Source of the DNA: Bacteroidales bacterium
GTDB taxonomy: Bacteria > Bacteroidota > Bacteroidia > Bacteroidales > UBA932
NCBI GenBank assembly: GCA_017544005.1
Contig: JAFYEZ010000013.1
Coordinates: 1-64,000 of the forward strand
DNA length: 64,000 bases
Direction of reading: 5' to 3'
The position numbers were made by a program, and so were the translations under genes. Every line of letters starts with the position of its first letter. Position 1 is the first letter of the stretch. Below the pieces are notes generated by a model, which ran no database searches, had not been told where the DNA came from, and was given only the letters and a program-made list of their open reading frames with translations. Shown in pieces: positions 35,975 to 61,575 of this stretch.

Positions 35975-36685
35975 ATGAATCGAAAACCGCTGTTGATCCT
36001 GGCGCTGCTTGCGCTGCTCTTTACCGGCTGCTCGTCGGCGCGCTATGTGTCGAAAACCCCGGCCTCCGTGGCGCAGCCCATCGCCCTGCTGGAGCCGATG
36101 AGCGAGATTTTCTTTGTTGAAAAGAATGGAACGGAGACGCTCGATATCGGCCTCTCCGAAACTTCCACGCAGATTCTTTCGGAGGCTTTGACTTCGCTTC
36201 CGCTGCCGGTGGAGCAGCCCGACGGCTACCCCGTGGCCGAGGTGATCCCCGTGGACTACTCCGGGGAGGACAATCCCTATGCCTGGCATGTCAGCGCCCT
36301 GGCCGGTGTCCGTCCAAAGGCCCTGAAAAATGCCGGCGTCCCCGATGAAATCACCCGTCTGCTGCGGAGTTACGGCTACCGCTACGGCATGCTGGTCTAT
36401 CACACGGGATTTACGCGGGACCGTTCCAATTATGCGAAATCGGTGGCCATGGATGTCGGGCTGTCCATTGTGACCGGCGTGATTGCCGGGCTGCTTGGCG
36501 GCGGCGCCGTCTATACCGGCCATCACCTGCGTCACCTCTCCCGGATCTTCATCATGATCGTGGACGTCGAGGCCAACGAGATTGTCTATTTCGCCTCTAC
36601 CGCCAACATGGAAGAAGAGCGCAATCCGCTCAACGCTCCGCTCCAGAAGGAACGCGTCCTCCGCCTCCTGCGACGCTTCAAATAA
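35975..36685 (+). CDS. Hypothetical lipoprotein with a glycine-rich hydrophobic hairpin
   Basis: 236 residues with a lipoprotein signal (LLALLFTGC, Cys19). I do not recognise a family. The middle has a conserved-looking HVSALAGVRPKALKNAGV region. Residues about 155-182 (VGLSIVTGVIAGLLGGGAVY) could insert into a membrane or form a glycine-zipper. An IMIVDVEANEIVYFAS strand pair follows. It stands alone on the plus strand between the ribosomal operon and djlA-like gene, with its own promoter. Confidence 0.8.
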   Translation: MNRKPLLILALLALLFTGCSSARYVSKTPASVAQPIALLEPMSEIFFVEKNGTETLDIGLSETSTQILSEALTSLPLPVEQPDGYPVAEVIPVDYSGEDNPYAWHVSALAGVRPKALKNAGVPDEITRLLRSYGYRYGMLVYHTGFTRDRSNYAKSVAMDVGLSIVTGVIAGLLGGGAVYTGHHLRHLSRIFIMIVDVEANEIVYFASTANMEEERNPLNAPLQKERVLRLLRRFK

Positions 36686-36694
36686 AAAAGCCGA

Positions 36695-37456
36695 TCAATT
36701 CATCCCGCGCTCGCGCTTGATGGCCTCGTAGGCTTCCTGGACCTGGCGGAATTTGTCGGCGGCGGCCTTCTGGATGTCCGGGCCGAGGGTGGCGACCTTG
36801 TCGGGGTGGTTCTTCATCGCCATCCGGCGATAGGCGGCCTTAACCTCGTCATCGGTGGCCTCGGGCTTGATCTCCAGTACGGCATAGGCGGAGCTGGTGT
36901 CCTTGTAGAACATCGCGATGACGGAGTTCATATCCGCCGCCGAAATCCCGATTGCCGCGGCGATTGTTTCAAGCACCGTCTTTTCGGATGCGCTGAATTC
37001 GCCGTCCGCGGCCGCCAGCTGGGCCAGGTAGTGGAACAGTTGCAGCCGCTGGGAATAGTTCATGTTCGCAGCAATCTGCGCACCCACCGACCGGACATCC
37101 ACCGCCTTCCGGTTGAGCTCGTCCAGGATGCGCATGGCTTCGTCTTCCGCAGCGAAGCCGAAGTTTTGCCGCACGAAATTCCGTACATAGTCCAGTTCCG
37201 AGCGCAGCGTCTTTCCGTCGGCCCGGATGACGGCCGATGAAAGCACGAGCAGACTTACCAGGAAGCTGTTGCGCTGTTCCTGGGCGGAGTAGCTGTGGCC
37301 CGCGGTCGAGGAGGAGCTGCCGCCTGCCGCTGTCGGGTTCGCCGATACAGTTCCCCGCACGTCCGAGGCGGCTCCGAGAAAGTATCCAATCAGGCCTCCG
37401 ATGGGCCCGCCAATGACCCATCCCAGCAAACCGTATAACCACCTGCGTGCTCCCAT
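36695..37456 (-). CDS. DjlA-like membrane co-chaperone (TerB and J domains)
   Basis: 253 residues. An N-terminal glycine-rich membrane segment (about 8-28) is followed by a TerB-like helical domain (about 60-185: SSAVIRADGKTLRSELDYVR, AAADGEFSASEKTVL). A C-terminal J domain (about 187-250) has the HPD triad in KNHPDKV. This is the DjlA architecture, which recruits DnaK to the membrane face. It is the last gene of a minus-strand run S9-S9-rmuC-djlA with gaps of 1-12 bases. Confidence 0.9.
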   Translation of the reverse strand: MGARRWLYGLLGWVIGGPIGGLIGYFLGAASDVRGTVSANPTAAGGSSSSTAGHSYSAQEQRNSFLVSLLVLSSAVIRADGKTLRSELDYVRNFVRQNFGFAAEDEAMRILDELNRKAVDVRSVGAQIAANMNYSQRLQLFHYLAQLAAADGEFSASEKTVLETIAAAIGISAADMNSVIAMFYKDTSSAYAVLEIKPEATDDEVKAAYRRMAMKNHPDKVATLGPDIQKAAADKFRQVQEAYEAIKRERGMN

Positions 37457-45102: not shown

Positions 45103-45897
45103 ATGAGACGGATTCTTTTTGCGCTGGCGGTGCTGCTCGTAGCGGCGTGCCATCCCCATCCGGCCGGACCGGTTGCCCTGCAAACCGGAGACCTTCTTTT
45201 TACGGGGCTTCCGATGGGATATCTGCCCGGCGCGGAGCACAATCCGCCGGTGGATTCCATCACCTGCGCAGGGGATTCACTCAATCTGATCCATGTCTCC
45301 ATCCTGGAGGTGGAAGGCGATTCCACCTGGGTGATCGACGCCACCCTCAAACGCGGTGTGGCGCGCTATCCGCTGGCCGATTTCCTGACCGACTTTACCC
45401 TGAGTGAGGGCGGCCTGCCCTGGTTCATCGTCGCCCGGCTCTCGTCGTCGGCAGCTTCCGCTGCCTCCGCTTCTGCGGATAATGCCGGTTGTTCTGCGAC
45501 TTTTACCGTTTCCAGCGGGAATTCTGCCGGTAGCACCTCTGCTTCCTTTTCCTCTGCTCCGGCCGATGCCCCCGATGCGCTCGAGCGCTACGTGGCCCGT
45601 GCTCGCGAGCTTTGCGGTCAGCCCTATGATGTCGCGTTCAAGCCCGACAACGGCGCCCTCTACTGCTCCGAGTTGGTTCGCGAATCCTATGTCACCGCCG
45701 CCGGCGACACCCTCTTCCCGGAGGCCGCCATCGATTGGCGCAACGCCGCCGGCGAGGTCGCTCCCTACTGGACCTGGCTCTTCAACCTGATCGGCGCCGA
45801 CCTTCCCTCCGGTTCCGGCACCCTTCCTGCCTCGCTCCTTGCCTCCCCGCAGCTACAGATTCTTGCCTCCGGCCCCGGCGTCATCTGGCGTCCCTGA
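45103..45897 (+). CDS. YiiX/YebB-type NlpC/P60-fold cysteine hydrolase lipoprotein
   Basis: 264 residues from ATG 45103 with a lipoprotein signal (LLVAAC, Cys16). QTGDLLFTG opens the permuted papain-like fold. His is in NLIHVSIL and the nucleophile Cys in LYCSELV near the C-terminus. This order (His before Cys) is typical of the YiiX/YebB group of amidohydrolases acting on cell-wall or lipid amides. Between the two halves lies a Ser/Ala-rich low-complexity insert (about residues 110-160), probably a flexible loop. A long frame extending upstream to 43756 is antisense to the ThrE-like gene and is not real. Confidence 0.85.
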   Translation: MRRILFALAVLLVAACHPHPAGPVALQTGDLLFTGLPMGYLPGAEHNPPVDSITCAGDSLNLIHVSILEVEGDSTWVIDATLKRGVARYPLADFLTDFTLSEGGLPWFIVARLSSSAASAASASADNAGCSATFTVSSGNSAGSTSASFSSAPADAPDALERYVARARELCGQPYDVAFKPDNGALYCSELVRESYVTAAGDTLFPEAAIDWRNAAGEVAPYWTWLFNLIGADLPSGSGTLPASLLASPQLQILASGPGVIWRP

Positions 45898-45918: not shown

Positions 45919-46031
45919 GCCTTGGCGGCTAACTATCTCTACATCAGTTAGTAACGTAAAGTACTTGTACCCGAAACAGGTACCAGTACTTTGTGCATCG
46001 TAAAGACTCTCAACGAGTTAGCCGCCAAGGC
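45919..46031 (+). repeat. Structured palindromic element, copy A
   Basis: 113 bp with perfect 15-bp terminal inverted repeats (GCCTTGGCGGCTAAC at 45919-45933, its complement at 46017-46031). The central hairpin AGTACTTGTACC/GGTACCAGTACT surrounds the loop CGAAACA. It lies between the convergent YiiX-like and serine-hydrolase genes. It is about 70-80 percent alike to copies B and C in the last 80 bases, with paired changes in the stem. Confidence 0.85.
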
Positions 46032-46065
46032 CGAAACGGGACGGCCCGAGTCACGCCCCGCGTGC

Positions 46066-47145
46066 CTAGTCTTTGGCCTGGACCAGCATATCCAGGAAGG
46101 TGTGGTACTGGCCGTGGGAGGTTTTGCGCTTGTAGACGGCGTCGGTCTTGAAGGCGACGACCATATCCAGTTCCGGGATGACCGTGATGAACTGGCCCAT
46201 CGCGCCGCGAGCGCCGTATGCCCCTTTGTACTGCGGCAGATAGTCTTTGGAGCGCTTGTCAAAGAGCCACCACATATAGCCGTAGCTGTAGCGAGTCGTC
46301 TTGCTGGTGGCGCTGACCTCCTTGAGGGTGGAAACGGGTGTCGTCATCTTGCTGATCCAATCCTTGGAAATCAACTGCTGCCCATCCCAGTTGCCTTCGC
46401 GTAGCATCAGGTAGCCCAGGCGGGCCATGTCGCGAACGGAGAGATAGAAATGGTAAGCCGGATAGATGGAGATCTTCAGGTTGCCGCCCTTCTTCTGTGC
46501 CTCGCGGTCCCAGTCCTGCATCCCGATGGGAATGGCCAGGTCTTCGCCCAGGATGTCATAGATATTCTTGCCGGTCTTCATTTCCAGCACGAAACCCGCG
46601 ACATTGAAGTCCCAGTTGTTGTAAACGAAATACTGGCCGGGCTTCTTGGAGCCGCGCTCCGGTTTTTTGTCGGAGTCGCCCGGATTGGAGGCGGGATGGT
46701 AGCAGCCACTGCGGGCGGTAATCAGGTCATAGACCGTAGCTTTCTTCTCGATGGGAAGCAGTCCTCCGATATCATCGAGCCCGAGATCCTCGATTGTCTG
46801 TGAGAGATCAATCGTGCCGTTTTCCACATATTTGCCGTAGAGCATGGACAACACGCTTTTGCGGCAGGAGGCCAGGTAGCTCAGACGGTCCAGCGCTCCG
46901 AACGAATAAATCATCTCACCACCGACAATCACCGCCACGCCGGTAGCACGGGTGCTGTCAATCAGATAGTTGGTAATCTCATCGAGGGCCTCTTTGGAGA
47001 AGCCGTACTTTTCCGGTTTTACCTTTTTCCAGCCGTTTTCAGCGGAAGGATAGATAGTGGCTTTGTCCGTCTGGGCATCTACTACGGGAGCGCCCAGCAG
47101 CATCAGGACCGCTACGGCGGCCAGGACGAGGAAACTCTTTTTCAT
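46066..47145 (-). CDS. Beta-lactamase-fold serine hydrolase, secreted
   Basis: 359 residues with a signal peptide ending VVDAQ. The SxxK nucleophile is in SCRKSVL (about residue 92), and YNNWDFN serves as the Tyr-x-Asn box. RGAMGQFI lies where KTG normally is. It belongs to the class C beta-lactamase/S12 group of peptidases and esterases. It overlaps the dipeptide epimerase gene upstream by 4 bp; together they suggest recycling of peptidoglycan peptides. Confidence 0.85.
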   Translation of the reverse strand: MKKSFLVLAAVAVLMLLGAPVVDAQTDKATIYPSAENGWKKVKPEKYGFSKEALDEITNYLIDSTRATGVAVIVGGEMIYSFGALDRLSYLASCRKSVLSMLYGKYVENGTIDLSQTIEDLGLDDIGGLLPIEKKATVYDLITARSGCYHPASNPGDSDKKPERGSKKPGQYFVYNNWDFNVAGFVLEMKTGKNIYDILGEDLAIPIGMQDWDREAQKKGGNLKISIYPAYHFYLSVRDMARLGYLMLREGNWDGQQLISKDWISKMTTPVSTLKEVSATSKTTRYSYGYMWWLFDKRSKDYLPQYKGAYGARGAMGQFITVIPELDMVVAFKTDAVYKRKTSHGQYHTFLDMLVQAKD

Positions 47146-48287
47146 AATTTGGTAACGCCGATACCCGGCAGGTCATTCAAGGTTATTTTTCCGTCAACGA
47201 TTTTCATTCCGCTGAAGCAGTCGTTGGAAATCAGCAGGTTGCCGTCGAGGTCTGCGAAGTCGACCTTCGGGGCGAGTTGGGCGGCCGCCGATACGGCGCA
47301 GCTGGTTTCCGTGGTGCAGCCGATCATCACGCCCATACCGAGGCCGCGGGCGGTGTCGATCATCCGGAGCGCTTCCCGCAGGCCGGTGCACTTGATCAGC
47401 TTGATGTTGATGCCGGTGAAAACGCCGTGCAGCCGGGCCACATCCTTCCAGCGCTGGCACGATTCGTCGGCGATGGTGGGCAGCGGGCTGCGCTCGGTGA
47501 CCCAGGCCATGTCGTCTATGACGGTCTTGGGCATCGGCTGTTCCACGAACTTGACGTCCCGTTCAGCGAGCCAGCCGATCATATCCAGCGCATAGCGCTT
47601 GTCCTTCCAGCCCTGGTTGGCGTCCACCACGATAGGTTTGTCGGTGACGCTGCGGATGGTCTCCACGATCATCTTGTCATCCTTTTCCGTGGAGCCCAGC
47701 TTGACCTTCAATATCTTATAAGGGGCGGCTTCCAGCGTCTTGGTGACAATCACCTCGGGGGTGTCCATCCCGATGGTGTAAGAGGTGCAGGGGGTCTTGT
47801 CAGCCGAGAATCCCCAGATCCGGTGGAGCGGCTGCCCCAGCAGTTTGCCGATCAGGTCGTTGAGGGCGATATCGATGCCGCACTTGGGACAGGACATCCC
47901 TTCCGCGAGCGAGTCCACGTAGCCCAGGATGGCGTCGGTCTCGAACGGGTCGGAGAACTGCGAAAGATCCACCTTGTCGAGGAAAGCCGTGGCCGTCTCC
48001 AGCGTCTGGCCGACCATATAGGGCGGCAGTGCCGATTCGCCGTAGCCGGTCACCCCGTCGTAGGAGATTTCCACCAGGATGACGGTGGTCGTGTCGCGGG
48101 AGAATCCGGAACTGGTAAAAGTATGCTGAAGCTCAACGATATAAGGATAGTACCGCAGGGAGAGTTTGCCACCCTTGCCAGCCCGTTTGCCGACTCCGCT
48201 GCCGCCCGCACAGGAGAGCAGTGCGGGGGAAACCGCCGCCGCAGCCGCCGCAGCGGCCGACAACTTCAGGAATTCACGCCTTCGCAT
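47142..48287 (-). CDS. Dipeptide epimerase, enolase superfamily (L-Ala-D/L-Glu epimerase-like)
   Basis: 381 residues. It has an unusual export signal with RRREFLK followed by an alanine run and LLSC, so it may be a Tat-exported lipoprotein. The muconate-lactonizing barrel has KxK (ILKVKLGS), metal ligands VDANQGW (Asp), FVEQPM (Glu) and IADESC (Asp), and a second Lys in NIKLIKC. That ligand set fits dipeptide epimerases that recycle murein L-Ala-D-Glu. It overlaps the serine hydrolase gene by 4 bp. Confidence 0.88.
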   Translation of the reverse strand: MRRREFLKLSAAAAAAAAVSPALLSCAGGSGVGKRAGKGGKLSLRYYPYIVELQHTFTSSGFSRDTTTVILVEISYDGVTGYGESALPPYMVGQTLETATAFLDKVDLSQFSDPFETDAILGYVDSLAEGMSCPKCGIDIALNDLIGKLLGQPLHRIWGFSADKTPCTSYTIGMDTPEVIVTKTLEAAPYKILKVKLGSTEKDDKMIVETIRSVTDKPIVVDANQGWKDKRYALDMIGWLAERDVKFVEQPMPKTVIDDMAWVTERSPLPTIADESCQRWKDVARLHGVFTGINIKLIKCTGLREALRMIDTARGLGMGVMIGCTTETSCAVSAAAQLAPKVDFADLDGNLLISNDCFSGMKIVDGKITLNDLPGIGVTKL

Positions 48288-48308
48288 AGTCGCTAGGGTT
48301 ATTTGCTA

Positions 48309-48316
48309 CAAATATA
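48309..48316 (-). promoter_or_regulatory. -7 element for the epimerase gene
   Basis: TATATTTG on the minus strand, 21 bases before the ATG at 48287. No clear -33 box. Confidence 0.5.
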
Positions 48317-48376
48317 ACGAAAAACCATCGACTCTGATACATATTATTATGTATCCGCGTTCCGGTTTTTTCTGCG

Positions 48377-48384
48377 TACTTTTG
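48377..48384 (+). promoter_or_regulatory. -7 element for the histidine kinase gene
   Basis: TACTTTTG matches TAnnTTTG and ends 6 bases before the ATG at 48391, so transcription would start at or next to the ATG. Confidence 0.55.
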
Positions 48385-48390
48385 CAAGGT

Positions 48391-50178
48391 ATGCGGAAAG
48401 TCCTCGTCATCACCCTGATATTCCTTGCGGTCGCCCTTAGCGGCAGCGCGCGGGACTGGTATGCAGAGGCGGAGGAACTCTACTATGCCAACCGCTATCC
48501 GGAAGCCATCCGGGTGGCGCAGGAGGGGGCTTCGCAGAGCGGCATCACGGAGGAGCAGGCCGTCGAGTTCTGGTCCATCCTGGGCAGCTGCTACGCGCGG
48601 CTCGGGGCTTTCGATAAGGCGGCGGAGTATATGATCCGCTGCTACCGCTACGACAAGGCGCAGGGCGAGCAGAAAGGCTTGACCTCTTCGCTGATCAATC
48701 TGGCCTCGATGTATGTCTATGCCGGCGAGCCGCAACTGGCGCTCGATTATGCCCTGGAGGCCATCGCCAACGAGCAGATGCTGGACCGTCCGGACAAACT
48801 GGCCATGGCCTACGGAAAGGCTTGCGACGTCTATCATGCCCTTGGGGCGGACAGCACCGCACTTCATTTCGCAGACCGGGCCGTAGCGATTGCACAGCAA
48901 CAGAACAACCGTCTTAGACAAGCTATCCGGAGGAGCCAGCGAGCCTATCCGCTCAGTGCATTAGGCCGGCACGAGGCTGCGCTCGCTGACCTCCGCTTTT
49001 CCGAGGATGTTTTCCGGGACAATGACGCCCGGCAATCCCTCGCTATCGTCTGTTTCCAGCTGGCCCAGGAATATGGGCGGAAAGGTGGATCCAAGACGCT
49101 GGAACAGAAATATCTGCAAGAGGCGGCAACCCTCGCGCGGGCATTGAATGACCAGCCTCTGCTGCAAAAGATCTGCAGCCGCCTGGCCGCATCGCTGCGC
49201 GAAAGCCATCCGGCGGAAGCCTACGGTTATCTGGAAGAGGCGGCCCGTCTTCAGGGAGAAATCGCGGACAGCAAACGCAACAATGCACTCGAACTGTTCA
49301 ATGTGGAATATGAAACCGCCCGGCGGGAAGCGACCATCGCCGCCCAGCAGGAAGATATCGCCCACAAACGGCTCCAACGGGATATCCTTCTGATTCTTCT
49401 CCTGCTGCTGGTTGCAGCCGCCTGCGTCACCGTCGTCTTCGCCGTACGGCAACACCGCAGCGAACGTCGGCTTCGACAGAGCAACGCCCAGAAAGACTTC
49501 CTGCTGAAGGTTATTTCCCACGATATCCACTCCCCCGCCGTGGCGCAATTGCGCGGGATTCAGATGATCCGCGAAAGTGCAGCCACCCTCACCCCCGGAC
49601 AGATGAACGATGTTTTCCTGCAGTTGGAGCGGCAGGCGGAATCCGAAGTGGAACTGATCGATAACGTCCTTCGCTGGGCCAAACGCAAAGTGGGCAACGG
49701 GGCCACCGAATCTGTCCGCTTCTCTCTCCCCGAACTGGTCCGCGAAACCCTTACGCAATATGCAGGCGCAGCCGAACTCAAGGAGATCCGCCTTTCGCTG
49801 GAATCCCCGGAAGAGGTCTCCGTCTGCACCAACCGCAATAATCTGGCGCTCGTACTGCGCAACCTGCTTTCGAATGCCGTCAAGTTCTCCTATCGAGGCG
49901 GTGACGTCCTGGTCCGGATCGAGCCGAACGCGGAGGGTGCCGCCGTTTCAGTGGTTGATCACGGCGTCGGTATTCCCCAGGACAAGCTCGCTCGAATCTT
50001 CAACGCCGACTCCACCTGGCGACGCGCCGGCACCGACGGCGAACCCAGCAACGGACTCGGACTGGCGGTCAGCCGCGACCTGATTGAGGAGAGCGGCGGC
50101 AAACTTCTCGTGGAGAGCGGCGAGTGCAGCGGCAGCGTCTTTACCATCCTGATTGTCAACACCCCGGAAAATGGCTGA
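48391..50178 (+). CDS. TPR-containing sensor histidine kinase
   Basis: 595 residues. A signal peptide (MRKVLVITLIFLAVALSGSA) is followed by a periplasmic TPR region (about 20-330), one membrane helix (about 335-360), and the kinase core. H-box: VISHDIHSPAVAQL. N-box: LRNLLSNAVKFSY. G boxes: VVDHGVGIPQDKL and SNGLGLAVSRDL. Start at 48391 is supported by the adjacent -7 box. Frames extending to 48166 run antisense to the epimerase gene. It overlaps the response regulator by 8 bp, so the two form a coupled two-component pair. Confidence 0.92.
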   Translation: MRKVLVITLIFLAVALSGSARDWYAEAEELYYANRYPEAIRVAQEGASQSGITEEQAVEFWSILGSCYARLGAFDKAAEYMIRCYRYDKAQGEQKGLTSSLINLASMYVYAGEPQLALDYALEAIANEQMLDRPDKLAMAYGKACDVYHALGADSTALHFADRAVAIAQQQNNRLRQAIRRSQRAYPLSALGRHEAALADLRFSEDVFRDNDARQSLAIVCFQLAQEYGRKGGSKTLEQKYLQEAATLARALNDQPLLQKICSRLAASLRESHPAEAYGYLEEAARLQGEIADSKRNNALELFNVEYETARREATIAAQQEDIAHKRLQRDILLILLLLLVAAACVTVVFAVRQHRSERRLRQSNAQKDFLLKVISHDIHSPAVAQLRGIQMIRESAATLTPGQMNDVFLQLERQAESEVELIDNVLRWAKRKVGNGATESVRFSLPELVRETLTQYAGAAELKEIRLSLESPEEVSVCTNRNNLALVLRNLLSNAVKFSYRGGDVLVRIEPNAEGAAVSVVDHGVGIPQDKLARIFNADSTWRRAGTDGEPSNGLGLAVSRDLIEESGGKLLVESGECSGSVFTILIVNTPENG

Positions 50179-50815
50179 TCCAATCCGCATCCTGTTGGTA
50201 GACGACCATCCGCTGATGCTGATGGGTATCCGGGCCATGCTGGAAGGGCAGACCGACATTGAGATTGTCGGCACGGCGGCGGACGGGGCCAAGGCGCTCG
50301 CCATGCTCGCCTCGATGGAACGCCTTCCGAATGTCATGCTGCTCGACATTATGATGCCCGGCATGGACGGCATCGAACTGGCGCGGCGGATGCGGGCCGA
50401 GATGCCCGACGTGTCGCTTCTGGTACTTTCGAGCGACACCTCACTGGCCACACTGGAGCCACTGCTGAATATCGGCATCGACGGTTTTCTCTCCAAAGGC
50501 AGCGACAAGCAGACGATGCTATCCGCCATCCGCAGCGTCGCCGCCGGCTACGAGTTCTTCGGCACCGACATCGCCCGGCTCATCGAGCGCATCAGTTTTG
50601 CCAAGAAGGCCTCCGACAGCCTTTTCACACCGCGGGAGCTGGATGTCATCCGCCTCAGCTGCAAGGGCCTGCAATACAAGGAAATCGCCGGCCAGCTGGG
50701 CATCAAGTATCTGACGGTGGTCACCATCAAAAACAATATCTTCCGCAAGCTCGGCATCAACAACACGGTGGAGCTGGTGCTTTACGCCATCAAAAAGGAG
50801 CTCATCACCCTGTAA
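50171..50815 (+). CDS. LuxR/NarL-type response regulator
   Basis: 214 residues. The receiver domain has the acidic pair in LLVDDHP, the phospho-acceptor in VMLLDIMMPG (Asp about 58) and Lys in FLSKGS. A GerE/LuxR helix-turn-helix follows (TPRELDVIRLSCKGLQYKEI). It is the partner of the overlapping TPR kinase. The gene converges on the fimbrillin-like lipoprotein gene, which is a plausible but unproven target. Confidence 0.93.
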   Translation: MADPIRILLVDDHPLMLMGIRAMLEGQTDIEIVGTAADGAKALAMLASMERLPNVMLLDIMMPGMDGIELARRMRAEMPDVSLLVLSSDTSLATLEPLLNIGIDGFLSKGSDKQTMLSAIRSVAAGYEFFGTDIARLIERISFAKKASDSLFTPRELDVIRLSCKGLQYKEIAGQLGIKYLTVVTIKNNIFRKLGINNTVELVLYAIKKELITL

Positions 50816-50831
50816 TCGTTTGAAGCGAAGC

Positions 50832-50862
50832 AAAAAGAAGGGCGGCCTTGCGGTCGCCCTTC
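50832..50862 (-). terminator. Terminator of the fimbrillin/FISUMP gene
   Basis: An 11-bp stem (50837-50847 with 50852-50862, one G-T pair) and TTGC loop. On the minus strand it is followed by a five-T run. It lies just after the 50882 stop and may also slow transcription from the convergent regulator gene. Confidence 0.75.
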
Positions 50863-50881
50863 CTGTTGTCTGCGAAGTGCG

Positions 50882-53176
50882 TTAGTTGTTGATCTTCATG
50901 CAGCGTACCGACAAGGCATTACCGCACCCGATCTCCGGTCCCCATATGTAGGCTCCCCAATCGACGCTATTGTATGTGTGCATAATTTCGACGATAGGAG
51001 CAAGGTTGTCATCTGCTTCGTTCATCGTGGAGGGGCTGTCGTATGCCTTTCTGTCCTGGATGCGCATAAACTGACGATACTTGGTGGTTCCTCCGCTCGT
51101 GGACCAATAAAAGCCCGCATAACGGAAGTAATTGTAATATCCATATCCACGATAGTCGTAATACTGCTGTACAATACCGTGCCCGTCTTCATCAATGTAA
51201 CCGGCATACGGGAAGTACGCGTCGATATTACCATTGAAATCAGCATGGAAGAAATTGACTCCGGCATATTTGTCGGTATTCAGTATATAATCCGATTTTT
51301 CCCATCCAAGGATATCGTTGTAGCTGCCCATCACGGTCCATCCATACGGGCAGGGATCGTCGTTGCTGCTGCTCCAGCGGTCACGGGCCTGCAACTCTTC
51401 CCCTTCCGTATAGACCCAATCCATGTTGCCCCAGCCTCCGGTGCGGTTCGGCTGGATGAAGGTCATCGGGTGAGCGTGCGCATACGCCACGGTGCCGGTT
51501 TCTGCAGTGCACTCAACATAGTTCCAGTTGGCGGCATTGGTGGTATAGATCTGAACCGGATCGTTGTCCGCATAGAGGTTCTTGACACCGCGGAACGGAT
51601 CCTTGCGGCCGAACTGATAGAGCAGGCCGGCGGTTTCCGTGCTGCCGACACCGTTGCTGTCTCCGGTCATGTAATCGTAGCTGAAGCCACCGAGGTTTAC
51701 TTTCATCATGTAGTAGGTGTCCGCATCGTAGTAATCCGTCGTCGGATTGAACGAAGCGCCGGTGCACCAGATATGCCAGCTCCAGAGGATGTTCCCGGAG
51801 CCATCCTTGACGGCGATCAGGGCATTTCCACGCGCGCCGGTGGTCTTGAAATAGACATAACCGTCATCGTAGATGCCGATACCATTCGTAATGGCGGGAT
51901 CGGAAACGTCGATGATGTCACCAACCGAAGGAACATTCATGCCGTTGGCCTTGGACTCCCAGAGGACCTCCGCTGAAACGGCTGTGGAGTTCAGATAATT
52001 AAAATCGGTTCCCTTGCAGTTCTTGAACTTGTAGATGCCCGGCGTGTCGGAAGCCACCACGTAGCAGTTGGCCGTATGGTTCATCGGGCTCAGGTTGGTA
52101 GCGGCGGGCGGCGTGGAGGAAGCCGTCCCCTCGAGATTGACCGTCAGGCGGTACATCTTGCCGGCCTCGAAAGAGGTGAGCGACGGCAGGGTGATGGTCT
52201 TCGTATATTCATCGCCGTTCTCATGATAAGCGGTCACCGTCCAGGTAGTGGAAGCGGGCTGGTCCTTGATGGAAGCGACCATATAGCAGACCAGCGTGCG
52301 GTCGACCGGAAGGTTTATGCCGGTGGAGGTTCCCTCGTTCGGATTCATATTGCCGAAATAGACATCCAGATAGTCGGAGTTCTTGGTAAGAACCATTGAG
52401 GGATCCGCCAGATATCCCCAGTTGCCGTTCGGACCGAAAGAATAGCCGGCAGAAGTTTCCAGACGAATACTCTGGATCACGTCGGAAGAGGTGAGGCCGG
52501 AAGGAAGGACTGCCGTCAGCTTGATGACCGAATAAAGGTTCTGCATCGTGGCATTGAGGGTATGCGTGTACGCATTCACCTCAACAATCTGAGCGTTTCC
52601 GAAGATGACGTTGCGCTCGCGGACCGGAGTCAGGTCGCCGCTACTGGTTACATACGGATAACGCTGATTGTCAAAATGGACATACTCCGTTCCTTTCTTG
52701 ACGCCATAGATGGCGCGGGCCACGTCGATGCGGTCGGTACGGCCGTTGAAGGGACGGGATGCCCAGTAACCGTCATCTTTCGGCTGGTCCACGTCATCCA
52801 ACTCCACGGGTTCGAGAACCGGGTAGAACACGAGAATACGCTCCGCATCAGCGCCAGTGTAGTAGCCCTCAAAGACACCGCTCGCAGTGCCTTCGCCGGA
52901 TTTGAGGGCGAAATTGTCGATGCTGCGGACCGTTGCCGTGCTATTGTCTGCGTTGAACGACACGACGGAGACGCTGTCGCCGAGGGTCCAGGTGCATTTG
53001 AGGACATTGCCTTCCAGTTCATAGTTCGTACGGGTAGCGTCGCCCAGATTGGCGGTCAGGGTCATCAGGACGCCCTGGGGATTTTCAGAACCGGTACCTC
53101 CGAATTGCTCTTTCGGCTGGCAGGAAACAAGCGCAAGGGCGGCGACGGCCGCCAAAAGGATAATGGTTTTCTTCAT
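50882..53176 (-). CDS. Surface lipoprotein with fimbrillin-like N-terminus and FISUMP C-terminus
   Basis: 764 residues with a lipoprotein signal (LALVSC, Cys19). Residues 30-370 resemble the fimbrillin-like/Mfa-type fold (LTANLGDATRTNYEL, CTWTLGDSVSVVSF). The C-terminal part (about 530-764) has the FISUMP pattern: LLYQFGRKDPF, DDPCPYGWTVMGSYNDI, FRYAGFYWSTSG and a final ALSVRCMKI. Such proteins are displayed on the cell surface, possibly as pilus tips or adhesins. It is preceded by a 40-residue peptide gene, 12 bases away. Confidence 0.85.
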   Translation of the reverse strand: MKKTIILLAAVAALALVSCQPKEQFGGTGSENPQGVLMTLTANLGDATRTNYELEGNVLKCTWTLGDSVSVVSFNADNSTATVRSIDNFALKSGEGTASGVFEGYYTGADAERILVFYPVLEPVELDDVDQPKDDGYWASRPFNGRTDRIDVARAIYGVKKGTEYVHFDNQRYPYVTSSGDLTPVRERNVIFGNAQIVEVNAYTHTLNATMQNLYSVIKLTAVLPSGLTSSDVIQSIRLETSAGYSFGPNGNWGYLADPSMVLTKNSDYLDVYFGNMNPNEGTSTGINLPVDRTLVCYMVASIKDQPASTTWTVTAYHENGDEYTKTITLPSLTSFEAGKMYRLTVNLEGTASSTPPAATNLSPMNHTANCYVVASDTPGIYKFKNCKGTDFNYLNSTAVSAEVLWESKANGMNVPSVGDIIDVSDPAITNGIGIYDDGYVYFKTTGARGNALIAVKDGSGNILWSWHIWCTGASFNPTTDYYDADTYYMMKVNLGGFSYDYMTGDSNGVGSTETAGLLYQFGRKDPFRGVKNLYADNDPVQIYTTNAANWNYVECTAETGTVAYAHAHPMTFIQPNRTGGWGNMDWVYTEGEELQARDRWSSSNDDPCPYGWTVMGSYNDILGWEKSDYILNTDKYAGVNFFHADFNGNIDAYFPYAGYIDEDGHGIVQQYYDYRGYGYYNYFRYAGFYWSTSGGTTKYRQFMRIQDRKAYDSPSTMNEADDNLAPIVEIMHTYNSVDWGAYIWGPEIGCGNALSVRCMKINN

Positions 53177-53188
53177 GGTCTTTTCCTC

Positions 53189-53311
53189 CTAGTCGTTGTA
53201 AGGGATATCACCACCGTCTCCGAAGTCCGGAGCGGAAAGGCAGAGTACCTGTTGCGGCCGCACCTCGATCGTCTTGAGTCTGGGTGCAGCATACACTTGT
53301 TTGTTTTCCAT
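53189..53311 (-). CDS. 40-residue conserved-type small peptide upstream of the fimbrillin-like gene
   Basis: The peptide begins MENKQVYAAPRLKTIEV and ends in a Gly/Asp-rich tail (GDGGDIPYND). Small peptides with a Y-x-x-P-x-x-x-x-(V/I) core and a GGD-like tail are common next to surface-lipoprotein genes in Bacteroidales. Their function is unknown to me. A promoter lies about 46 bases upstream of the ATG, and only 12 bases separate it from the lipoprotein gene, so it leads the transcript. It has no signal peptide. It could be a small regulator, a translational coupler or a peptide precursor. Confidence 0.65.
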   Translation of the reverse strand: MENKQVYAAPRLKTIEVRPQQVLCLSAPDFGDGGDIPYND

Positions 53312-53356
53312 ATGCAATAGGGTCATTAAGAATTTGCAATGCAGTTTAATGCACGG

Positions 53357-53388
53357 CAAAGGTACCCTCTCCCGCGTGCGCAGGCAAT
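53357..53388 (-). promoter_or_regulatory. Promoter of the small peptide and fimbrillin-like gene
   Basis: On the minus strand ATTG (53388-53385), 20 bases, then TACCTTTG (53364-53357). One mismatch in the -33 box. Confidence 0.6.
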
Positions 53389-53430
53389 ACATAATTCTAT
53401 GTATCCATGACCTGCGGCTGGTCTTCTAGC

Positions 53431-53538
53431 CTTGGCGGCTAACTTGTTATCACACAGCGACTAACGCGAAGCACTGGTACCCCAAACAGGTACCAGTGCT
53501 TTATGTATCGTAGTGATTCTCTGCGAGTTGACCGCCAA
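53431..53538 (+). repeat. Structured palindromic element, copy B
   Basis: About 108 bp, outer arms TTGGCGGCTAAC and GTTGACCGCCAA (near-perfect). The central hairpin AGCACTGGTACC/GGTACCAGTGCT is fully paired, with loop CCAAACA. It lies between the promoter of the small peptide gene and the 3' end of gcvP. Confidence 0.85.
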
Positions 53539-53570
53539 ACCCCGCAAGGCCGGCCAGATCCCGACAGAGA

Positions 53571-56387
<2,817 letters not shown>

Positions 56388-56422
56388 ATCGGTTGGTTTA
56401 ATGGTTAATTCGAATAATCGTA

Positions 56423-56430
56423 CAAAGATA
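56423..56430 (-). promoter_or_regulatory. -7 element for gcvP
   Basis: TATCTTTG on the minus strand, 35 bases before the gcvP ATG. No clear -33 box. Confidence 0.55.
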
Positions 56431-56455
56431 GAATTTTTGGCGACATCTTTTTTGC

Positions 56456-56463
56456 TAATTTTG
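56456..56463 (+). promoter_or_regulatory. -7 element for smpB
   Basis: TAATTTTG matches TAnnTTTG and ends 8 bases before the smpB ATG, so the leader would be very short. The nearest TTTG upstream is at 16-base spacing, shorter than ideal. Confidence 0.5.
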
Positions 56464-56471
56464 CAGCCGCT

Positions 56472-56924
56472 ATGGCAAAAGGCAAAACCGTTGAAATCAA
56501 GAACCGCAAAGCCTCCTTCGAATACGAGTTCCTGGAGCGCTACACCGCCGGTATTGTGCTGTGCGGCTCGGAGATCAAGAGCATCCGCGCCGGCAAGGCT
56601 TCGCTGGTGGACGCCTATTGCTATTTCTCCGCCGCCGGGGAACTCTTTGTCCGCAACATGAACGTGGCCGAGTATTGGTGGGCTTCCGCCTTCAGCCGCC
56701 ACGACCCCAAGCGCGACCGCAAGCTGCTGCTCAACCGCCGCGAGCTGCGCAAGCTCTCCCGCGCCGTCAAGGAAAAGGGCCTCACCATCGTCGCCACCCG
56801 GCTCTTCCTCTCCGAGGGCGGCTACGCCAAGCTCGATATCGCCCTGGCCCGCGGCAAGCGCGAGTTCGACAAGCGCGAATCCATCAAGGAAAAAGACCTC
56901 CGCCGCGACCGGGAACGCGAGTAG
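56472..56924 (+). CDS. smpB: SsrA-binding protein
   Basis: 150 residues. Motifs: [30 protein letters not shown], here read as FEYEFLERY and [18 protein letters not shown], then [15 protein letters not shown] and the basic C-terminal tail [17 protein letters not shown]. SmpB brings tmRNA to stalled ribosomes. Normal length, though no tmRNA gene is visible in the window. Confidence 0.97.
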
Positions 56925-56937
56925 CGGGGGACGTTAG

Positions 56938-58185
56938 TTATTCTCCATGATATGCACCGGCAGAGAGAATGGCTCCAGTACTGCTTTCAGTGATCAGAAA
57001 TAGGAACGGGTGGTCGGCGTGAAAACGGAATACAGATTCCGCCCCGACACCCGTACTGCCGGCCCAAATGCCGGCTTCGGTAACCGCAGCGGCTTCCGTG
57101 CCTGTCTCATCGACGCGGATTGTCGCCTTCTGTTTTACATCCGAAAGCATAGTTCCCACTGATTCAAACATAGGAGCAAGAGCCGTCCCGCTCGCGGAGA
57201 ATATCTTCCTGATGCCCATTTCCTGCAGAACCGGTTTCAAATCCACTGATGTCTGAATTTCAAATCTTGGCAGCCAAACTTCGATTTTTCGCTGAACGAA
57301 AGAAGAAGGAATGACGACGTCTCCTTTCAGCCATTCATCGATACCCAGGTCTTTTGTCGGAAGGATAATAATCATCGAGTAGGCCCCGTTCCCGTAAGGT
57401 AATTTGAGAAAATCAACTCCAGTTCCCGGTTTCCAAAGGAAATTGTCTGTTTTTTTCATAAACTTGACACGGCAGGTCGAGCCGTCTTCTCGTGTAAAGA
57501 CCTCTGTCTCGGTCTCTTTTTTGTCGAACTTGTCAGACCATACTCCTTTAAACCAGGAGGCATCCAGTAGCAATGCAATGAGTTGCAACCAATTAGTGCG
57601 CTCAAGATCTGCTTTGGTAATCATCTCCGGAATCAGTCCGTTCGTATTTTTCGAACACCAGGTGTTGACCTTCTCCCGAATAGATGCCGGTTTGCTGAAA
57701 TCGACCGTTTCGCACAAGGCATTGTAACGGGTGACGACGGTTTCAGCATAGGTCTTCCGCAGAGGGCTGGTGGGTGAAACGAGAATGGATCGAGCAGTAA
57801 CGAACTGTGTCAGTTTATCGAGAGTCGGTAATTCACGAATCAGTCGGGAACAATAATCATTGACAGCGACAATGTCTCCCGATCCATATCCCAAAACCTG
57901 GCAGATTTCATTGGCTGCGTCCTCCTCCGCTCCGTTGAGTAGCATGCCCAGAACAAACTGAAGACTCAGGGGCGAGATGATATAGCTACTGCTTTCCTTC
58001 GCGTTAATCTGCGACAGCATCGATATGGCGAATGAGTTGCCGGAGGACACCATTGCCTCTTGTTCCATGGTCAAAACAATCGGCTCAAACTCATTGTCCT
58101 CTGCCGTTACGGACAGATTATTACCACAACCGGCAAAAAACAGAATGGACAGCAAGACCGGTATCTGGAAAATAATGCGTTTCAT
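56938..58185 (-). CDS. Serpin lipoprotein (protease inhibitor)
   Basis: 415 residues with a lipoprotein signal (LFFAGC, Cys20). The serpin fold is clear: SYIISPLSLQFVLGMLLNGA, NTWCSKNTNGLIPEMI, LLDASWFKGVW and the C-terminal ADHPFLFLITESSTGAIL. The hinge GTEAAAVTEA is of the inhibitory type (small residues at P12-P9). By spacing, the scissile bond falls at about Gly-Ser in WAGSTG, uncertain by a residue or two. It is 24 bases after a C10 cysteine protease gene in the same direction and shares its AT-rich composition, so it may restrain that protease or host proteases. Confidence 0.92.
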   Translation of the reverse strand: MKRIIFQIPVLLSILFFAGCGNNLSVTAEDNEFEPIVLTMEQEAMVSSGNSFAISMLSQINAKESSSYIISPLSLQFVLGMLLNGAEEDAANEICQVLGYGSGDIVAVNDYCSRLIRELPTLDKLTQFVTARSILVSPTSPLRKTYAETVVTRYNALCETVDFSKPASIREKVNTWCSKNTNGLIPEMITKADLERTNWLQLIALLLDASWFKGVWSDKFDKKETETEVFTREDGSTCRVKFMKKTDNFLWKPGTGVDFLKLPYGNGAYSMIIILPTKDLGIDEWLKGDVVIPSSFVQRKIEVWLPRFEIQTSVDLKPVLQEMGIRKIFSASGTALAPMFESVGTMLSDVKQKATIRVDETGTEAAAVTEAGIWAGSTGVGAESVFRFHADHPFLFLITESSTGAILSAGAYHGE

Positions 58186-58209
58186 AAGTTAGAATGATTG
58201 ATAGTAAAA

Positions 58210-59631
58210 TCAATTTTCTGGATTATACGGAATGAAGTGTGTCATTATTATAGCAGAACTTGTAGGGAAGCCACTTGTCTGACCAGAATAATCAGGCCAA
58301 ACAATCGATTCTGCCGCGAATTCAATGCTATTGCCTAGTCCACTCCACCCCCAATTCATCGTAAAATAATGTTGGGTATTTGGCCATTCTTCAATGTAAT
58401 AATTGTAACCCTCAGGACAGTCAAACGAATAGCCATTTCCCGTATAGTACTCTCCACCCGGCTCATCATCTTCTTCGCTAATATCTCCGCCGGACGGTAT
58501 GACGTAGGTATGCCAAGGATCCCAAATAAAGTATCGCCTTACCGAATGGAAAGCATGGCGATAGCCATCAATAATCCATGCGTGACCATTTGAAACAATA
58601 ATGGATGGAATGCTACTTCTAAGGTTGGCAATGACACTGGATGTATCGTAGGTGGTATATATGGCATCCAAGGAAAACACTCCTCTTAACCAGGAGATAT
58701 TGTCGCTGCATAACAAAGACCCCGTTGATCTTTTAAAGACTGGATCATCATCATACCCATATTCAGTATCGTCATAACGAGATACTTTTGCCATTAAATA
58801 GCTTGCGTAGTCAGCACTTCCTGGCGAAGTAACGGCTGAATCCAACTTAATTTGATTCCATGCAGTAGTAGAACTGTCATTAAAGAAAAACGTATACTGC
58901 TGCTGATCATTAATATAGTCGTTGCAAGAAGCATCGGTGTACATATAGGCAGGAACGCCATATGTATTGTGAGCCCAATAGAGAATCTGTGCGTAAGCGA
59001 CGTTTACACATCCTGTTGCCGAACGAACGCCGGGATAGTTGATACTGATATACGGCGTACACTCATTCCAGGGTTCCAATTGCCCCCAGGCCGTTTCGAT
59101 AATTCTTGGGATATAATCGTAAACTATAGTCGTATCCCCCGTATGGATTAATCGCCACCCTGATCCTGGAGGATCATCCTCTCGTGTATCTCGCTGGTTA
59201 ATGGCGTGTAACCAAAATGAATTGATATCTCCGAAAGGATTCTTCCTCAGCAATTGTAGATAAGATTTTTGGCTATTCAGCCACGATTTTATAGCAGGAT
59301 TATTATCTAAAAGAGTCTTGTCAAAGTGTTCATTTGTACCCCGAGCAAGAATAGGGCAAGTGCGTTTATCAGAAGAAAATAGCATCCATCCCTTCTTTGT
59401 GTTAACAAGAAAGAGAACGGTGTCACTTTCAAACAAAATGGGTTCAATGAGAATAGCATCAGATCGCGTACCCACTTCAATTTCCAGAGCATCTATCAAC
59501 TCTTGAGAAGACACTCTATATGACGGCGATTCAAAATTGGAGGGGAGTATCTCATCGTCATGAGAGGTACAAGAAGAATAAACAAGCAGTGGAAAAAATA
59601 GAACGATTCTGAAAGCAGAAAGAAACTTCAT
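58210..59631 (-). CDS. C10-family (streptopain/interpain-like) cysteine protease lipoprotein
   Basis: 473 residues from ATG 59631 with a lipoprotein signal (LLVYSSC). An N-terminal Spi-type prodomain (about 25-170) includes NTKKGWMLFSSDKRTCPILA. The catalytic Cys is in RSATGCVNVAYAQIL, with His in VSNGHAWIIDGY and the Trp-rich MNWGWSGLGN at the end, all typical of family C10. The prodomain would be cut off on activation. The long frame upstream to 59832 runs through copy C of the repeat and is not supported. AT-rich relative to gcvP. Confidence 0.88.
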   Translation of the reverse strand: MKFLSAFRIVLFFPLLVYSSCTSHDDEILPSNFESPSYRVSSQELIDALEIEVGTRSDAILIEPILFESDTVLFLVNTKKGWMLFSSDKRTCPILARGTNEHFDKTLLDNNPAIKSWLNSQKSYLQLLRKNPFGDINSFWLHAINQRDTREDDPPGSGWRLIHTGDTTIVYDYIPRIIETAWGQLEPWNECTPYISINYPGVRSATGCVNVAYAQILYWAHNTYGVPAYMYTDASCNDYINDQQQYTFFFNDSSTTAWNQIKLDSAVTSPGSADYASYLMAKVSRYDDTEYGYDDDPVFKRSTGSLLCSDNISWLRGVFSLDAIYTTYDTSSVIANLRSSIPSIIVSNGHAWIIDGYRHAFHSVRRYFIWDPWHTYVIPSGGDISEEDDEPGGEYYTGNGYSFDCPEGYNYYIEEWPNTQHYFTMNWGWSGLGNSIEFAAESIVWPDYSGQTSGFPTSSAIIMTHFIPYNPEN

Positions 59632-59759
59632 AAAGAATGAATTATATAACGAACCGCAATGTAGTAAAAATTTGCGAAAATACAATCGAAAACAAGATGC
59701 TGTCTTCCCGTCCCTCTTGTCGCTTGTGCTCTTTTCACAAGCGGTGAGTCTGAGGTGGT

Positions 59760-59866
59760 TTGGACGATAACTCGCTGATAGCCAACGAGTAACGCGAAGC
59801 ACTGGTGCCTCAAACAGGTGCCAGTGCTTCATGTATTGTGGTGATTTTCTGCGAGTTATCCGCCAA
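59760..59866 (+). repeat. Structured palindromic element, copy C
   Basis: 107 bp, outer arms TTGGACGATAACTCGC and GCGAGTTATCCGCCAA (14 of 16 paired). The central hairpin AGCACTGGTGCC/GGTGCCAGTGCT is fully paired around TCAAACA. The A-to-G change from copy B's stem is matched by a T-to-C in the partner arm. It lies in the 380-base gap between the C10 protease start and the outer-membrane protein gene. Confidence 0.85.
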
Positions 59867-59870
59867 TGCT

Positions 59871-59907
59871 GAGGTAGAGCCCGAACCGCAAACGGTTGCT
59901 CGACCTC
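59871..59907. other. Imperfect hairpin next to the old miaA 3' end
   Basis: GAGGT-A-GAGC and AACCG on one side pair with CGGTT, GCTC and ACCTC on the other, around CAAA. It lies just beyond the displaced copy of the miaA stop codon and may be the original miaA terminator, although no T-run follows on either strand. Confidence 0.45.
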
Positions 59908-59911
59908 CCGC

Positions 59912-60008
59912 TACACCTCCACCCACTCGATCTGGATGCCGCGGCGCTCCATGCCGCGGAACCAGGTCATCTGCCGCTTGGCAAACTGGTGGATGGCGAT
60001 GCGCAGTT
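59912..60008 (-). pseudogene. Displaced copy of the miaA 3' end (direct repeat 1)
   Basis: 97 bases, 95 identical to 60698-60794, encoding the last 31 or so residues of MiaA and its stop (TAG here, TAA in the intact gene). One of the two internal differences is synonymous and the other is Lys to Gln (GIKIEW to GIQIEW). No start codon is attached. It ends 2 bases from the stop of the neighbouring outer-membrane protein gene. Confidence 0.88.
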
Positions 60009-60010
60009 CG

Positions 60011-60625
60011 TTACAGACAGTACGCCACAATAAACCGCAGATAATGAACGCGGGAATTGTAAGTGGCGAATTCCTCGTACTTTTTCCGCTGGTTGAGAAG
60101 GCCGATATTCATCCCTAGGCCGTAGATCCAGTGTCCGCTCCCTTGAAACATGATTTCCGGGCGGAGGGACAGATTGAATCGATTGTATACCTCTTTTCCG
60201 TTTCTCGCATCGAGCGGCTCGGAATCTATGTAATAGTACGTTGGATGAATGAAATAGGAGAGGTTCGGGCCAATGCTGAACACCGCGTTGACCTCATTGA
60301 CAACAAAATGATAACCGGCGGCGCAGTACACATCACTCTGGATGGATATTTCCGATGCCGCGTAATTAAAAAGGCCAAGAACTTCCGTATGTACGCCCGC
60401 CCCGGGAATGATAGACCACGCACCGGAAACCGGTATATCAACTCTGTATCCCAGTCCCAGTTCCGGGCCCAATCTCGAAATCAACGGCTCATGGATTTTT
60501 CCGTCAAGCATACAAACAGCCCCATCAGCCAACAGATAGTGGCGTGCATTGTTGTGCCCGGTTCCTTCTTGCGCATAAGCAACGAGGCTTGTAAATAACA
60601 AATAGAGTAATAAGTACCTTTTCAT
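60011..60625 (-). CDS. Small outer-membrane beta-barrel-like protein
   Basis: 204 residues from ATG 60625 (MKRYLLLYLLFTSLVAYAQ signal peptide). The mature part alternates hydrophobic and polar residues in strand-like segments (AAGYHFVVNEVNAVFSIGPN, FNLSLRPEIMFQGSG, HYLRFIVAYCL), as in small outer-membrane barrels of the PorT/OmpW-like kind. I recognise no exact family. AT-rich. It lies between the two copies of the miaA 3' end, which marks it as an inserted gene. Confidence 0.7.
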   Translation of the reverse strand: MKRYLLLYLLFTSLVAYAQEGTGHNNARHYLLADGAVCMLDGKIHEPLISRLGPELGLGYRVDIPVSGAWSIIPGAGVHTEVLGLFNYAASEISIQSDVYCAAGYHFVVNEVNAVFSIGPNLSYFIHPTYYYIDSEPLDARNGKEVYNRFNLSLRPEIMFQGSGHWIYGLGMNIGLLNQRKKYEEFATYNSRVHYLRFIVAYCL

Positions 60626-60696
60626 GATATGATGTTTCGTCTCATTAAAGAAAATATGGCGACACCGCTCGCTGTGAATTGTCAAACGGCAACCTG

Positions 60697-61575
60697 TTAC
60701 ACCTCCACCCACTCGATCTTGATGCCGCGGCGCTCCATGCCGCGGAACCAGGTCATCTGCCGCTTGGCGAACTGGTGGATGGCGATGCGCAGTTTCTCCA
60801 CCATCTCGTCGTAGCCCATCGCGCCGGTTAGATAGAGCGTCAGGTATTTGTATTCCAGACCGTAGTAGAGCAGGTCCTCAGGCGGAATGCCCCGCTCGAG
60901 CAGCCCGCGCACTTCATCCACCATTCCCTCGCGCAGACGCGCCTCCAGCCGGGCGTCGATGCGCGCGTTGCGCACCTCCCGCGAAACCAGCAGGCCGATA
61001 TAGCGGGTATTCTTGGGTAGGAACGAGGTATGTGTCACGGGGTGCGTTTCCTCATAGACGGCGATTTCCAGCGCGCGGATCAGCCGCTGGCGGGTATCGT
61101 AGTCGGTGGTGTTGTGGGGCGTCCGGAGCGCTTCGTAACGGGCAATCAGTGTCTCGGTGGGCAGCGCTTCCAATTCTGCCCGAAGGGCTGGATTGGCCGG
61201 CACGTCCGGCAGGTAATAGCCGCAGGTGGCCGCTTCCAGGTAGAGTCCGCTGCCCCCGCAGAGAATGGGGGTCTTGCCCCGGGCGACGATATCCCGGTAG
61301 GCAGCCTCGAAATCGTGCTGGTAGCGGTAGATGTTGTATTTCTCGCCGGCCTCGGCGATATCGATCAGGTGGTAGGGAATCTCGCCGTAGTCGGAGAGGT
61401 CCTTGCCCGTACCGATATCCATGCCGCGGTAAACCTGCCGGGAGTCGCCCGAGAGAATCTCTCCGTCACAGCGGCGCGCCAGCTCCACGGCATAGCGCGT
61501 CTTGCCGCTGGCCGTGGGCCCCAGCACGCAGACCAGGTCGGCCCCGCGCAGGATATCATCGGCCGCGTTGTTCAT
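60697..61575 (-). CDS. miaA: tRNA dimethylallyltransferase
   Basis: 292 residues. P-loop GPTASGKTRYAVELA (about 20), then GEILSGDSRQVYRGMDIGTGK, HLIDIAEAGEKYNIYRYQHD, GGSGLYLEA and the C-terminal QFAKRQMTWFRG. MiaA adds a dimethylallyl group to A37 of tRNAs reading UNN codons. The gene is complete. Its last 97 bases are repeated downstream at 59912-60008. Its start overlaps the 3' end of rodA. Confidence 0.96.
   Translation of the reverse strand: MNNAADDILRGADLVCVLGPTASGKTRYAVELARRCDGEILSGDSRQVYRGMDIGTGKDLSDYGEIPYHLIDIAEAGEKYNIYRYQHDFEAAYRDIVARGKTPILCGGSGLYLEAATCGYYLPDVPANPALRAELEALPTETLIARYEALRTPHNTTDYDTRQRLIRALEIAVYEETHPVTHTSFLPKNTRYIGLLVSREVRNARIDARLEARLREGMVDEVRGLLERGIPPEDLLYYGLEYKYLTLYLTGAMGYDEMVEKLRIAIHQFAKRQMTWFRGMERRGIKIEWVEV
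60698..60794. repeat. miaA 3' end, intact copy (direct repeat 2)
   Basis: Partner of the 59912-60008 repeat. It forms the true 3' end of miaA. The 689 bases between the two copies hold only the outer-membrane protein gene. Confidence 0.88.

Follow-up and report, generated by a model that had tools for sequence, protein, structure and literature searches.

REPtrons, REPINs, and TIRtrons are already known (PMC6006769, PMC3733652), and the binding and cutting of a folded single strand by the TnpA-REP proteins of E. coli and S. maltophilia has been demonstrated (PMC8266576). Two groups are of particular relevance. TnpA-Y1 subclass 2.6 is mostly from Bacteroidetes; its genes have 'atypical secondary structures' on their flanks, copies of which occur at other places in the genome, and it exhibits the HuH motif NH[LIV]H, the tyrosine motif YIH[QN]NP, and a median length of 179 aa (Quentin et al. 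2018, PMC6006769). TIRYT/TIRtron genes, which resemble those of REP-associated tyrosine transposases (RAYTs), are flanked by non-GTAG inverted repeats; some of these terminal inverted repeats (TIRs) are self-complementary, some belong to repeat families, and GGGGWSAS is frequent among them but not universal (Di Nocera et al. 2013, PMC3733652). Here we describe a family of 113-nt palindromes in a Bacteroidales bacterium (GCA_017544005.1), three copies of which lie in a 64,000-nt stretch of contig JAFYEZ010000013.1 (hereafter the window), together with a RAYT-type Y1 transposase encoded elsewhere in the same genome.

We consider it probable, at roughly 80%, that these elements are REPIN-like non-autonomous DNA palindromes mobilized in trans by the RAYT. 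This view draws on direct observations: the palindromes are dispersed and of fixed size, a RAYT-like gene with the HUH histidines and the tyrosine stands between two copies, most related loci carry RAYT-specific palindromes, elements and RAYT co-occur within the genus, and genomes differ in the presence or absence of copies.

The 113-nt palindromes and the RAYT-type gene between two copies

The features of the window, with the scores of a covariance model (termed R1), are as follows.

45919..46031, + strand: element copy A, 113 nt, 98.9 bits (copy used to build the model)
53429..53541, + strand: element copy B, 113 nt, 93.6 bits (copy in the model)
59757..59869, + strand: element copy C, 113 nt, 90.7 bits (copy in the model)
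45955..45995, + strand: central hairpin of copy A, element columns 37-77
53465..53505, + strand: central hairpin of copy B, element columns 37-77
59793..59833, + strand: central hairpin of copy C, element columns 37-77
36634..36704, no strand: short intergenic gap without an element; a related genome, G157, has a 113-nt copy there (C23:11913-12025) within collinear flanks

A preliminary description of the window had reported three palindromes with covarying stems, and their coordinates proved to be right within 3 nt. The palindromes are imperfect, and each spans exactly 113 nt arm to arm, with a central hairpin of 17 stem positions a side and a 7-nt loop. Over 107 nt, copies A and C are 76 and 80% identical to copy B, respectively. 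Each copy is 5.0 to 8.3 standard deviations stabler than dinucleotide shuffles on both strands, and a geometry scan of the window (central hairpin plus outer stem, sum >= 20) returned exactly these three.

Copies are dispersed through the genome to which the window belongs (G000; 50 contigs, 1.57 Mb, 85.8% complete), as found by BLAST with element B. An arm-pair scan of genome stretches gave 25 pairs, 10 of which were discarded because they had no central hairpin or overlapped a better frame. The 15 palindromes that were kept are all 113 nt long, align without gaps, and have dyad symmetry. The common orientation noted in the preliminary description holds for the three window copies but not genome-wide, where 7 of the 15 are on the plus and 8 on the minus strand; orientation is only weakly defined for a palindrome this close to symmetric. 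In two copies, L030:7211 (C49:45211) and L032:402 (C5:402), the left or right end shares bases with the TAG stop of similar gene tails, which would fit a joint duplication of gene and element.

The centre of the element is not one sequence. Stems are of the GCACTGGTACC type in some copies and of the CTACCCCC or GCGCACCCC type in others, each type pairing with itself, and some copies have an unrelated central hairpin of equal length. When the 15 copies were fitted to a four-stem model, 80.9% of cells were paired, compared with 72.4 +/- 1.0 in shuffles; 26 pairs were changed on both sides, compared with 18.6 +/- 2.4; and the covariation score was 0.328, compared with 0.041-0.150 for slid partners. 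The matched changes across the stems that had been noted in the window were thus confirmed over the larger set. Because the outer arms had served to pick the copies, the central stem is the more independent evidence: 89.8% of its cells are paired, and 12 of its 17 pairs show a change on both sides. Within the family, 71.7 and 65.8% of cells in the two side arms are self-paired. A single long hairpin over the same columns gave 75.0% pairing and a covariation score of 0.281 (<=0.127 for slid partners), and 46 of 500 shuffles reached its value for further pair types.

Across the genome, model R1 found 16 strong places, together with 10 that score lower (E <= 0.01). It had been built from 15 of the 16 strong copies, so the scores of those 15 prove nothing; the remaining one, C1:11031-11143, was discovered by the model from outside it. 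Nine of the weaker places are 111 or 113 nt long and one is 67 nt, and the four that were inspected have different outer or central sequences. The 67-nt hairpin (L036:7583-7649, G000 C34:87583-87649) has the family outer stem without the 113-nt interior. A 111-nt palindrome (L031:9836-9946, G000 C43) has a different outer stem, CGTGGCAGATAA; in its G157 counterpart, 70 nt of the inside are gone, and about 20 nt of each outer arm are kept.

Four genes of the genome match Pfam Y1_Tnp, one of them below the curated cut-off, and a wider profile revealed a fifth, weaker match (C24:22598). The preliminary description had noted that no transposase lies near the palindromes, which is correct for the window but not for the genome: the RAYT-type gene C49:21421-22407 sits between the copies C49:21241-21353 and C49:22411-22523. 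This arrangement supports jointly two of the proposals made in that description, a non-autonomous transposon and a REP-like unit. The C49 protein scores 31.9 bits against Pfam Y1_Tnp (cut-off 23) and has about 170 residues after the Y1 core. Its residues H59 and H61 (HUH) and Y119 are invariant in 21 of 21 relatives; Y119, which lies in the motif YxxNNP, is taken as the catalytic tyrosine on the basis of the published motif (PMC6006769). Among PDB folds, the AlphaFold model of the protein (pLDDT 90) best matches 4er8, a RAYT with a REP hairpin (E 2.3e-5), and its nearest NCBIfam model is that of the REP-associated tyrosine transposase (NF047646).

The element comprises two inverted half-sites of about 56 nt. 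As single-stranded DNA it can fold so that the outer stem leads to a long central hairpin with a small arm on either side. By analogy with TnpA-REP, the transposase from C49:21421-22407 would act in trans, binding the folded strand, cutting it, and spreading copies. One guess is that the strict length might arise from a protein dimer that grips both half-sites.

Palindromes at related RAYT loci and co-occurrence in the genus

A scan of GTDB genomes with the RAYT alignment gave 229 relatives, the best 80 of which were retained as loci. All 80 are from Bacteroidales or Bacteroidia, many of them from rumen or gut; the nearest relative is encoded in the goat-rumen metagenome-assembled genome RGIG3539 (94% identity), and one genome has up to eight matches to the C49 RAYT. 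With thresholds of >= 10 of 14 for the central stem, >= 7 of 12 for the outer stem, and >= 20 for their sum, a palindrome of the family geometry was found within 300 nt of the RAYT match at 64 of the 80 loci, and on both sides at 26. Palindrome density was 94 per 65,095 nt near the RAYT and 32 per 366,667 nt further off; a shuffled control (mononucleotide, same thresholds) gave 1 per 504,257 nt. When the sum was raised to >= 22, 38 of the 80 loci still bore palindromes.

The outer and central stems vary among RAYTs, and the spacing is common to all. Because the stems were used for detection, their pairing is not independent evidence across these loci. The inner consensus motif is independent evidence. 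In the consensus drawn from 90 palindromes (180 half-sites), the outer stem retains TG, and AA, CTGAnnnTCAG, TTA, and AAA follow at fixed distances from the palindrome centre. No GTAG-type tetranucleotide is present in the consensus of these half-sites. Since Watson-Crick self-pairing of the four CTGA/TCAG columns is seen in only 42-68% of half-sites across families, the side arms are better termed a conserved motif at this level.

Palindromes also tend to be specific to their RAYT. Two palindromes of one RAYT have a median identity of 0.63 (26 pairs), compared with 0.38 for palindromes of different loci (600 random pairs), and 23 of the 26 same-RAYT pairs lie above the 95th percentile of different-locus pairs. 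The same is seen within the genomes at hand. The elements C49:1098 and C49:1830 flank an unrelated stretch of about 620 nt (L028:1098-1942, G000 C49), whereas in G157 a second RAYT, with 54% identity to the first, stands between their counterparts; the cargo between this element pair therefore differs between the two genomes. The second RAYT was not found in G000 C49:1-6000. Together with C1:11031, these two elements are 82-88% identical to the palindromes of the second RAYT in G157 and 51-61% identical to those of the first. The palindrome identities are split by RAYT, and therefore at least two sub-families exist, each paired with a RAYT of its own.

Further copies in related genomes, the lack of which the preliminary description had named as a ground for rejecting a family, were found in 24 of 40 members of the window's genus, the window's own genome included. 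With stricter filters, R1, which is most sensitive to palindromes of the window's own family, was run on 61 relatives drawn from the genus and from other families of the order. It matched 23, all of them among the 37 genomes of the genus (the window's genome counted); none of the 24 genomes from the other families had a match. Within the bacterial family to which the genus belongs, RAYT relatives are present in 9 of 25 genera, and several such loci carry palindromes. Among the 40 genus genomes, elements (E <= 1e-5) were present in 21 of 23 with a RAYT (E <= 1e-70) and in 3 of 17 without (Fisher p 2.8e-6). The RAYT line was drawn after the table was seen; at the preset limit of 1e-10, the counts were 22 of 26 and 2 of 14 (p 2.2e-5).

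Differences between genomes and other explanations

One presence/absence difference concerns the short gap listed above. The 113-nt copy in G157 starts directly after a stop codon, and the gap is 241 nt there compared with 71 nt in the window; because the gap differs otherwise too, the window site is not a base-exact empty site. Copy C adjoins a duplicated 3' tail of miaA (identified by Pfam IPPT). The last ~100 nt of this gene occur twice at 96% identity (59907-60008 and 60693-60794), copy C lying beside the orphan duplicate, and between the two tails is a 233-aa open reading frame (ORF; 60011..60712) with no Pfam match. In G157, position 56925 is joined directly to miaA, without the ~3.8-kb stretch that carries serpin, C10-peptidase, element C, and the 233-aa ORF. 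For the end of gcvP, beside which copy B lies, 28 other genomes gave a match, and 19 related loci among these were inspected; R1 found the element at none of the 19. The geometry scan gave a match at two, both rejected as family members: one consists of two ordinary hairpins, and the other lies ~500 nt from the gcvP end and is unlike the family.

Elements also stand at several junctions of rearranged DNA. Compared with G000, the segment C49:15423-21213 is inverted in G157, and in either genome an element bounds it on both sides. Segment C43:9675-14753, likewise with an element near each end in both, is inverted relative to its right flank; a plain two-breakpoint inversion was rejected, as the other G157 flank joins G000 C1:5124. 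The order around copies A and B differs as well, and a G157 element 93% identical to B adjoins the right flank of A. A simple rule of breakpoints at elements does not hold: two breakpoints of the A/B change are at copies of ATACATAnnnnTATGTAT (window 48337-48354 and 53387-53404), not at elements; these copies bound the rearranged segment, and the repeat occupies both breakpoints in G157 likewise. Window positions ~23,921 and ~31,845 are adjacent in G157, and the window is free of elements at these points. ATACATAnnnnTATGTAT might be bound by a regulator or used in recombination. The first 23.9 kb of the window are element-free and otherwise collinear with G157, apart from a gap at 919-992. These comparisons were made mostly around elements and give no estimate of breakpoint enrichment. 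An element copy in G157 (C106; L249:9510-9676) carries ~45 nt of the 3' end of the RAYT gene, which suggests that copies can move with flanking DNA.

Several observations weigh against mobilization by the RAYT. By sequence profile, 4er8 reaches only E 0.16 with the C49 protein and is outscored by ISDra2 transposases (E 3e-4), and the NF047646 cut-off of 80 bits was missed both by this protein (26.4) and by that of another genome, G015 (23.7). No flanking palindrome was found at the Y1 genes on C50, C19, and C32 (C24:22598 was outside the scan). At sum >= 20, 16 of the 80 RAYT loci had no palindrome, some perhaps because of contig ends, and a stricter palindrome scan left only 26 of 80. GTAG was found in 9 of the 180 half-sites (part searched), GGAG in 7, and GTGG in 5. 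The co-occurrence test ignores kinship and assembly gaps; three genomes have elements without a strong RAYT match, and two show the reverse. No base-exact empty site and no movement were seen in the genomes compared.

The explanation that survives best beside mobilization is a domesticated one, in which the elements now serve as transcription ends or protect mRNA 3' ends after stop codons. Their positions would suit this role. Two convergent ORFs enclose copy A, which starts 22 nt beyond the stop of the plus-strand ORF ending at 45897 and ends 35 nt short of the stop of the minus-strand ORF at 46066; copy B is 30 nt past the stop of gcvP (53571..56702, minus strand; Pfam GDC-P); the G157 copy follows its stop codon directly; and the gcvP end of G015 has an ordinary intrinsic terminator, read by eye. 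However, no T-run follows elements A, B, or C, and gene ends are also plain places of tolerated insertion. We regard such a role as possible but rather doubtful; it would be compatible with an element mobilized by the RAYT.

A structured RNA, trans-acting or cis-regulatory, kept in intergenic regions for a four-way junction, is very unlikely. The matched stem changes and stable folds would fit it, and the preliminary description had taken the former as the signature of selection on base pairing. The matching is real, but it does not by itself indicate selection on RNA. Template-switch correction of quasi-palindromes yields matched stem changes, and this process or conservation of a folded DNA would also suffice. 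Furthermore, both folding and R1 scores are nearly equal on the two strands, Rfam gave no match in the window at gathering thresholds, the RAYT-specific sequences adjoin transposase genes, and the family element is missing from all 19 related gcvP ends inspected. With so little difference between the strands, and with the element following a family of transposases that act on single-stranded DNA, a four-way-junction RNA is unnecessary.

A miniature inverted-repeat element of a DDE (cut-and-paste) transposase would have the terminal inverted repeats and the dispersal, but we give it hardly any credence, as the flanks show no clear target duplication when read by eye, the palindrome runs inward to a central hairpin, and 64 of the 80 loci link it to Y1 transposases. 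An integron attC-like site, of which R'/R'' core sites and an integron integrase would be expected, was also considered and was set aside when the association with the RAYT emerged.

Comparison with described systems

If the palindromes are indeed mobilized by the RAYT, the REPIN/RAYT partnership is extended to uncultured Bacteroidales, with a palindrome unlike the described REPs. The many RAYT-palindrome pairs, which share one geometry and differ in sequence, constitute a panel for the study of hairpin recognition by single-stranded DNA transposases and allow one to ask why bacteria keep such pairs. They also carry a warning that covariation in dispersed palindromes is no proof of a functional RNA. 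A broader proposal is put forward only tentatively, at less than even odds: RAYTs with an extended C-terminal part may form a class not yet described that acts on a four-armed DNA palindrome of fixed geometry, the two having co-diversified into numerous distinct pairs in gut and rumen Bacteroidales; the palindromes may also serve as joints for inverting segments or swapping cargo genes, so that the pair would help to shape genome order. No description of this palindrome family was found in the REPIN/RAYT literature by titles and the openings of abstracts, with most subscription papers outside this search, and element B had no match in plasmid and phage collections.

Like REPIN/RAYT systems (TnpA-REP, BIME) of Proteobacteria, the present one has a Y1 HUH gene flanked by dispersed, two-unit inverted palindromes, and the best fold match of the C49 protein is the E. 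coli TnpA-REP/REP hairpin complex, 4er8. Unlike them, the palindrome has no GTAG-type tag and is a single two-fold unit, fixed at 113 nt, whose central hairpin is long, and the protein continues for about 170 residues after the Y1 core and remains under the NCBIfam RAYT cut-off. Subclass 2.6 shares with it the occurrence in Bacteroidetes and gene-flanking structures with copies elsewhere, whereas the proteins here mostly have DHxH and Y[LV][YF]NNP and are about 305-330 aa long. As in the TIRYT/TIRtron group, RAYT-like genes are flanked by inverted repeats other than GTAG REPs. GGGGWSAS is not in the consensus here, and not every TIR of that group has it; the fixed 113-nt geometry has no counterpart in the portion of its description consulted (PMC3733652). 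Because the motifs and the length differ and GTAG is absent, we regard the system as a variant that works like a REPIN/RAYT pair rather than as a proven member of a described subclass.

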